A stretch of 64,000 bases of DNA, taken from NCBI GenBank assembly GCA_026984035.1, contig JALSSW010000051.1, positions 1 to 64,000 of the forward strand, read 5' to 3'. A model generated the notes under the pieces. The model saw only the letters and a program-made list of their open reading frames with translations. It was not told where the DNA came from and made no database searches. The position numbers and the translations under genes are program-made. Shown here piece by piece: positions 42,051 to 42,948 of this stretch; position 1 is the first letter of the stretch, and each line of letters begins with the position of its first letter. This stretch comes from Planctomycetota bacterium (GTDB taxonomy: Bacteria > Planctomycetota > UBA1135 > GCA-002748355).

Positions 42051-42178
42051 AAATCTTCTCAAAGGCTTGCAAACCAAGTTCTCAAAGGTAATTTCTGTTC
42101 CAGTTTTGACGTGACTTGAGGGTCGTGATTGGGCATTCTTGGGATCTAAAGAACTACATTGAATGATGATATTCCCCT

Positions 42179-42232
42179 GATCCCGCCGGACACTCCCCCC
42201 ATTCCCCCCCGTTCGGCGGGATCATTTTTTTT
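42179..42232 (+). terminator. Strong rho-independent terminator
   Basis: GATCCCGCCG (42179-42188) pairs perfectly with CGGCGGGATC (42214-42223) around a C-rich 25-base loop, followed by A and eight Ts. It lies 343 bases after the tnaA stop. Either tnaA has a long 3' UTR holding element copy B, or it ends a separate small RNA. Confidence 0.85.
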
Positions 42233-42444
42233 CAGTATCGTTGGCTGCCTTCAATACATAGAGTCTTCAAGGCACGGGAATGCGGCAAAAGAGCCGCCAA
42301 AACTCCTCCTGGATTTCGACTGAGACACCCCGACCGATGTTGCGGATGTCTACCAAGAATGGAATCAAGGAGGTAGGTCAAGGTAGGCTGCAGGACCTTT
42401 AAGAATTTCCTTTATCCAATTTCTTTCATCAAACAGGAATGACA

Positions 42445-42948
42445 ATGATCCAAATCGGAGAAAAAGGCCCCACCTTCAAACTGGAGGACCACTTGGGCCG
42501 AACCGTTGACCTCCAGGACCTCCTGGGCAAGGGAAACGTCATGCTTCTTTTCTATCCACTCGACTTCACCCCTACCTGAAGCAAAGAAATCCCCGGAGCA
42601 GAGGCGATCAAAGATCGTTTTGCTGCGGCTCACACCTACGTGCTAGGTGTGTCTGTGGATTCCAAGTTTTGCCACAAGGCCTGGGCTGATAGCTTGGGTG
42701 GAATTAGCTATCCGCTTCTCGCGGACTTCAACCCCAAGGGAGCAGTAGGTAAAGCCTACGGACTCTACCTTGAGGATGCTGGCATAGACGATCGGGCTAC
42801 CGTCATCCTCGATAAAGATGGAATCGTCCGGTATGCCGTCTCCGTCACCCCCTCGGGCGAGCGGGATATTCCCGGCCTTGCCGCTGAGTGTGAAAAAATC
42901 GACAAGGAGTACAGCGCCGGGCTCGGCGATCTGCCTCCGATCGAATAA
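42445..42948 (+). CDS. Peroxiredoxin with selenocysteine at the catalytic position (TGA readthrough)
   Basis: 167 residues if the TGA at 42577-42579 is read as selenocysteine (codon 45). Reading through gives FYPLDFTPT-U-SKEIPGAEA, the universal peroxiredoxin motif PxxxTxxC with U in place of the peroxidatic Cys. Both sides are plain peroxiredoxin: upstream MIQIGEKGPTFKLEDHLGR; downstream VLGVSVDSKFCHKAWAD, ISYPLLADFNPKGAVGKAYG, RATVILDKDGIVRYAV. The ATG at 42445 has AGGA six bases ahead. A possible bacterial SECIS follows the TGA. The enzyme would reduce peroxides in the cytosol. Cys76 and a Cys in GLAAECEK are candidates for resolution. The selenocysteine machinery is outside the window. 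A conventional caller would report only a truncated frame from 42640. Confidence 0.85.
42580..42624 (+). promoter_or_regulatory. Candidate bacterial SECIS element
   Basis: Directly after the TGA, AGCAAAG (42580-42586) can pair with TTTTGCT (42618-42624). Inside, ATCCCC (42589-42594) pairs with GGCGAT (42603-42608) except for one C-C mismatch, and the eight-base loop begins with GG, as bacterial SECIS loops usually have G among the first two bases. The loop starts 15-16 bases from the UGA, at the short end of the usual range. A competing CGATC/GATCG hairpin exists at 42605-42617. Confidence 0.5.

Follow-up and report, generated by a model that had tools for sequence, protein, structure and literature searches.

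Positions 42445-42948 (forward strand) of the window, by which we mean the whole 64,000-nucleotide stretch of DNA analysed here, almost certainly constitute a genuine selenoprotein gene, encoding an AhpE-type peroxiredoxin predicted to carry selenocysteine (Sec) at its catalytic codon 45. The mRNA holds two hairpins downstream of the UGA: the first resembles a bacterial SECIS element, and the second is in all likelihood an RNA element under selection. As annotation would shorten this gene in many planctomycete genomes, its recognition corrects more than a single record.

A peroxiredoxin gene interrupted by TGA

The reading frame encodes 167 amino acids, with a single in-frame TGA (42577-42579, forward strand) as codon 45 at the peroxidatic position (PLDFTPT-U), and ends with the TAA at 42946-42948; around the TGA it reads ...LLFYPLDFTPT-TGA-SKEIPG.... 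A Shine-Dalgarno-like AGGA, identified by reading the sequence, is found at 42435-42438 of the same strand, six bases 5' of the ATG at 42445, and this motif and the leader bases adjoining the start are conserved in the sister genome. There the gene occupies the same place, between genes that resemble a beta-eliminating lyase and SpeA (both named by reading their sequences).

The earlier note on this DNA, made from the letters alone, had described a peroxiredoxin frame running from 42445 through a TGA placed on the catalytic Cys, of which standard gene callers would give only the tail. Each of these points is borne out. The AhpC-TSA family PF00578 matches residues 4-130, spanning the TGA, with a score of 110.7 bits against a curated cutoff of 26 (E = 5.6e-32); the nearest solved structures are those of Mycobacterium tuberculosis AhpE, with whose catalytic Cys the TGA codon aligns; and the sole ordinary open reading frame in this region is a 102-codon tail starting at GTG 42640. 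An AlphaFold model built with 28 sequences is of high confidence (pLDDT 95.8, pTM 0.92), and its top PDB matches are all M. tuberculosis AhpE (TM-score by target up to 0.94, 35-36% identity). In this model residue 45 is the start of a helix, and it is at a helix start that the peroxidatic residue of peroxiredoxins sits. Cys76 and Cys149 vary among homologues, so that the protein is without a conserved resolving Cys, although Cys76 is common within the clade described below.

Upstream of the gene, positions 42172-42232 (forward strand) hold a hairpin with a C-rich loop (TTCCCCTGATCCCGCCGGACACTCCCCCCATTCCCC...GTTCGGCGGGATCATTTTTTTT), a candidate for either a small RNA or a conserved terminator. 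It is conserved in seven of eight genomes of the family, two of them lacking the Sec-peroxiredoxin, and a search of Rfam with this hairpin returned no match. In the sister species the 182 nt around it are 87% identical, compared with 71-80% in the adjacent aligned stretches.

Conservation of the TGA and evolutionary history of the gene

Every close homologue (E below 1e-44) carries the TGA at this codon and none has Cys; these homologues come from 33 genomes among the 151 of the same order or closer. Further loci, taken from named assemblies and from elsewhere in the phylum, likewise have TGA at codon 45. The homologues show no other disruption; in the few for which a second in-frame stop is recorded, it marks the end of the gene. 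Relative to the sister species, dN/dS is 0.027 on the 5' side of the TGA and 0.023 on the 3' side, which indicates purifying selection throughout. The view in the earlier note that a nonsense mutation or sequencing error is unlikely to have landed on this codon by chance is thus upheld, and the further disruptions in relatives by which it would have recognised a pseudogene are absent.

We built a tree of 85 sequences in which residue 45 was masked wherever it is Sec. It groups 46 Sec genes in a single clade with full support (100/100), and the TGA is present in 46 of 46. Cys forms, sought in the alignment of homologues that the same note had proposed, do exist, but they are confined to the outside of this clade: the nearest outgroups carry Cys, and the nearest Cys forms within the phylum (L136, L137 and L140) are about 50% identical. 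As far as sampled, the clade is therefore exclusively Sec and extends to the level of the phylum in Planctomycetota, a peroxiredoxin lineage which, within this sampling, has never reverted to Cys. The remark that Sec peroxiredoxins occur in some anaerobes holds as regards the kind of protein, which is known, but misses this planctomycete clade.

Several other TGA-containing sequences were encountered. L118, L069, L138 and L119 are peroxiredoxins outside the main clade, probably belonging to Sec families of their own; in L119 a hairpin is likewise found at the position of the second hairpin described below. L063, from a record titled Candidatus Krumholzibacteriota, falls within the planctomycete Sec clade and has both hairpins, suggesting either lateral transfer or mis-binning.

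The machinery for selenocysteine and the meaning of the TGA

A search of the genome assembly (3.8 Mb in 210 contigs, 90% complete) for the sel genes, as the earlier note had recommended, yielded a tRNA-Sec with the UCA anticodon and both SelA and SelB above cutoff, but no SelD. The sister species has selD directly 3' of selA. In the genome studied here the end of contig C141 truncates selA after 285 codons, at precisely the point beyond which the sister assembly enters SelD, and selD is therefore to be expected in the gap; an assembly gap after selA is the most economical reading of its absence. The other flank of selA is alike in the two genomes, with recJ-like, DedA-like membrane protein and rfaD-like epimerase genes (named by reading the sequences). 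SelD is above cutoff in 141 of the 151 relatives, and in nearly all of them (L074-L102 and others) it holds one TGA itself, as expected for a Sec-containing SelD. As 136 of the 151 relatives also have tRNA-Sec, co-occurrence of this tRNA with the peroxiredoxin gene is uninformative.

Two other explanations of the TGA were considered. Decoding as another amino acid, through a variant code or a suppressor tRNA, would fit a frame that stays open whichever amino acid TGA is taken to encode. However, TGA terminates 12 of the 31 long open reading frames in the window, and as it is an ordinary stop there the code has not been reassigned; the codon, moreover, is at the catalytic Cys position, and the tRNA present is a Sec-type UCA tRNA. 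We consequently reject this explanation as most improbable. That the gene is a pseudogene, a former Cys-type peroxiredoxin whose catalytic codon suffered a nonsense mutation, would account for an in-frame TGA and would suit the absence of selD from the assembly, but is rejected as having a negligible chance of being correct, given the TGA shared by all close homologues, the purifying selection on either side of it (dN/dS of 0.02 downstream) with no further disruption, and the Sec machinery in the genome. We also scanned the window by codon usage for further genes interrupted by TGA and found none, but the thresholds used missed 42445-42948 as well, which makes this result uninformative.

The SECIS-like hairpin

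Immediately downstream of the UGA, positions 42593-42628 (forward strand) fold into a SECIS-like hairpin with an MFE of -18.8 kcal/mol when folded alone; its apical loop, 30 nt from the UGA, is AAA. The stability of this hairpin exceeds that of sequences recoding the same peptide with synonymous codons (z = -3.31); the mean z is -1.8 for 50 Sec genes versus -0.6 for 35 Cys genes. A single fixed-register consensus fits poorly, with 60% of cells paired, because the upper stem moves by one base between genes; loop positions for the clade were therefore taken from predicted MFE structures, folded gene by gene. By this measure the apical loop lies 20-31 nt from the UGA in 46 of 46 clade members and comprises 3-8 nt.

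The bSECIS consensus model has an apical loop of 3-9 nt located 16-37 nt after the UGA, with a G among the first two loop positions (PMC13188914). The window gene agrees with this model in loop size and distance but lacks the loop G, as do 30 of the 46 clade members in all; the remaining 16 have it.

A second conserved hairpin

A second hairpin, CACACCTA-cgtgc-TAGGTGTG (42631-42651, forward strand), begins 2 nt 3' of the SECIS-like hairpin and has a stem of 8 bp. It was returned unprompted by RNAalifold, and in the window RNA its pair probabilities are 0.91-1.00. Across 34 distinct sequences 93.8% of cells are paired, and none of the slid registers comes close. Changes on both sides of a pair occur in 25 cells versus 6.9 in shuffles, counts which are uncorrected for shared ancestry. 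We then compared the number of pairs with that expected under synonymous recoding, randomised with the codon usage of each gene: the 50 Sec genes have 365 pairs against 264.4 +/- 6.6 expected, and the 35 Cys genes have 155 against 165 +/- 5.3.

Pair 57-73 of the helix is C-G in 14 sequences, U-A in 13 and G-C in five. It joins a third codon position to the first position of the codon six further on, a geometry that couples the amino acids on the two sides. Of the 15 Asp codons that are GAT, 14 go with Ile at the later position, whereas all six that are GAC go with Val, 14:1 against 0:6 (P = 1.3e-4 by Fisher's exact test, uncorrected for kinship). Similarly, Glu (GAG) pairs with Leu (CTC or CTT) across the hairpin.

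Sec sequences from several families within the phylum carry the hairpin. In the clade, three Sec genes (L025, L033 and L051), all encoding a C-terminal extension, have lost it and kept the TGA, which indicates that it is not universally needed. It is therefore tied to the Sec form of the gene but is not strictly essential. Among six SelD mRNAs of relatives that were folded, no consistent second hairpin was seen.

Possible role of the second hairpin

The simplest reading of the second hairpin, and the one towards which we lean, is that it assists the recoding of UGA. More specifically, and only tentatively, we propose a bipartite signal, in which a non-canonical SECIS and the second hairpin together would raise or regulate the decoding of UGA as Sec in planctomycete Sec-peroxiredoxin mRNAs; this equally tentative reading includes selection strong enough to couple amino-acid changes on both sides of the hairpin.

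A different job for a real RNA element, with no effect on Sec insertion, is a lesser but substantial possibility; mRNA stability, binding of a small RNA or protein, and regulation by selenium supply are the functions we have in mind. Its position favours such a job, as the hairpin begins 54 nt after the UGA and thus past the SECIS, as do the three clade Sec genes that lack it; its link to Sec forms and its constant distance from the UGA within the clade speak against it.

It is also conceivable, but quite unlikely, that the hairpin has no RNA role and is a by-product of coding for the TQVLG motif with palindrome-prone codons. The T-Q-V-L-G core is indeed conserved, and the amino acids alone predict 5.3 of the 8 pairs; the observed mean, however, is 7.3 of 8, some 15 standard deviations above synonymous recodings, and this holds for Sec genes only, Cys genes being at or below expectation. 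The choice of Asp codon and the E/L, D/I, D/V and H/V pairings follow the helix, and the window lineage has retained it despite a change from C-G to U-A (T-A in the DNA) at pair 61-69.

Proposed mechanism

The steps that we infer for recoding and catalysis are as follows. At the UGA at 42577, SelB with Sec-tRNA-Sec would bind the hairpin just downstream, and Sec would be inserted at residue 45, the start of helix 45-54. The second hairpin may belong to the recoding signal or assist it; it might, for instance, stack on the SECIS, slow the ribosome or stabilise the binding of SelB. In the folded protein the selenolate would attack H2O2 or organic hydroperoxides, and the selenenic acid so formed would be reduced in turn by thiols supplied from outside the enzyme, probably through a glutaredoxin-type system.

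The product would be a one-selenol peroxiredoxin of the AhpE type, and it is likely to depend on an external reductant because Cys76 is not conserved in the clade. The glutaredoxin type is proposed because of one feature, the glutaredoxin domains fused to clade homologues: at least eight of these have a C-terminal glutaredoxin-like extension (three examined with Pfam, the others by eye). Loci at which such an extension was noted are L023, L024, L025, L026, L028, L032, L033, L051, L126, L127 and L135.

Comparison with known systems

The best match to the window protein in both sequence and fold is AhpE (Rv2238c), a 1-Cys peroxiredoxin of M. tuberculosis, with which it shares a PxxxTxxC-type motif and a peroxidatic residue at position 45. 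Unlike AhpE, to which it is about 36% identical, it has a predicted Sec at that position, and some members of its clade have a fused glutaredoxin.

The TxxU Sec-peroxiredoxins are an established family of selenoproteins (PMC1794560, PMC2398784, PMC5029168, PMC13188914), and the bacterial members already described (PMC13188914, PMC2398784, PMC1794560) likewise belong to PF00578 and have Sec at the peroxidatic position. The window protein nevertheless falls outside the PrxU equivalog (NCBIfam NF040737), against which it scores 88.5 bits with a cutoff of 270. The Prx-SUH thiol peroxidase (NF045827) is also a peroxiredoxin family with known selenoproteins; its motif is given as CxxU rather than TxxU (PMC13188914), and here the window protein scores 19.6 bits against a cutoff of 298. 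What sets the planctomycete genes apart from known bacterial Sec-peroxiredoxins is an exclusively Sec clade with a second mRNA hairpin. We found no paper on this clade in the open-licence literature, nor any description there of bacterial SECIS elements with a second hairpin.

The RNA signal resembles bSECIS in having a hairpin right after the UGA, with loop size and distance in the range of the model, and differs from it in that the loop G is found in just 16 of 46 genes, the window gene not among them, and in that a second conserved hairpin lies downstream. Thus, Sec-peroxiredoxins are already known as a kind, and it is the second hairpin in the RNA signal that appears to be undescribed. This hairpin hints that bacterial Sec insertion can make use of more than the single SECIS hairpin published so far, and it provides a sequence signature by which more such genes may be located.
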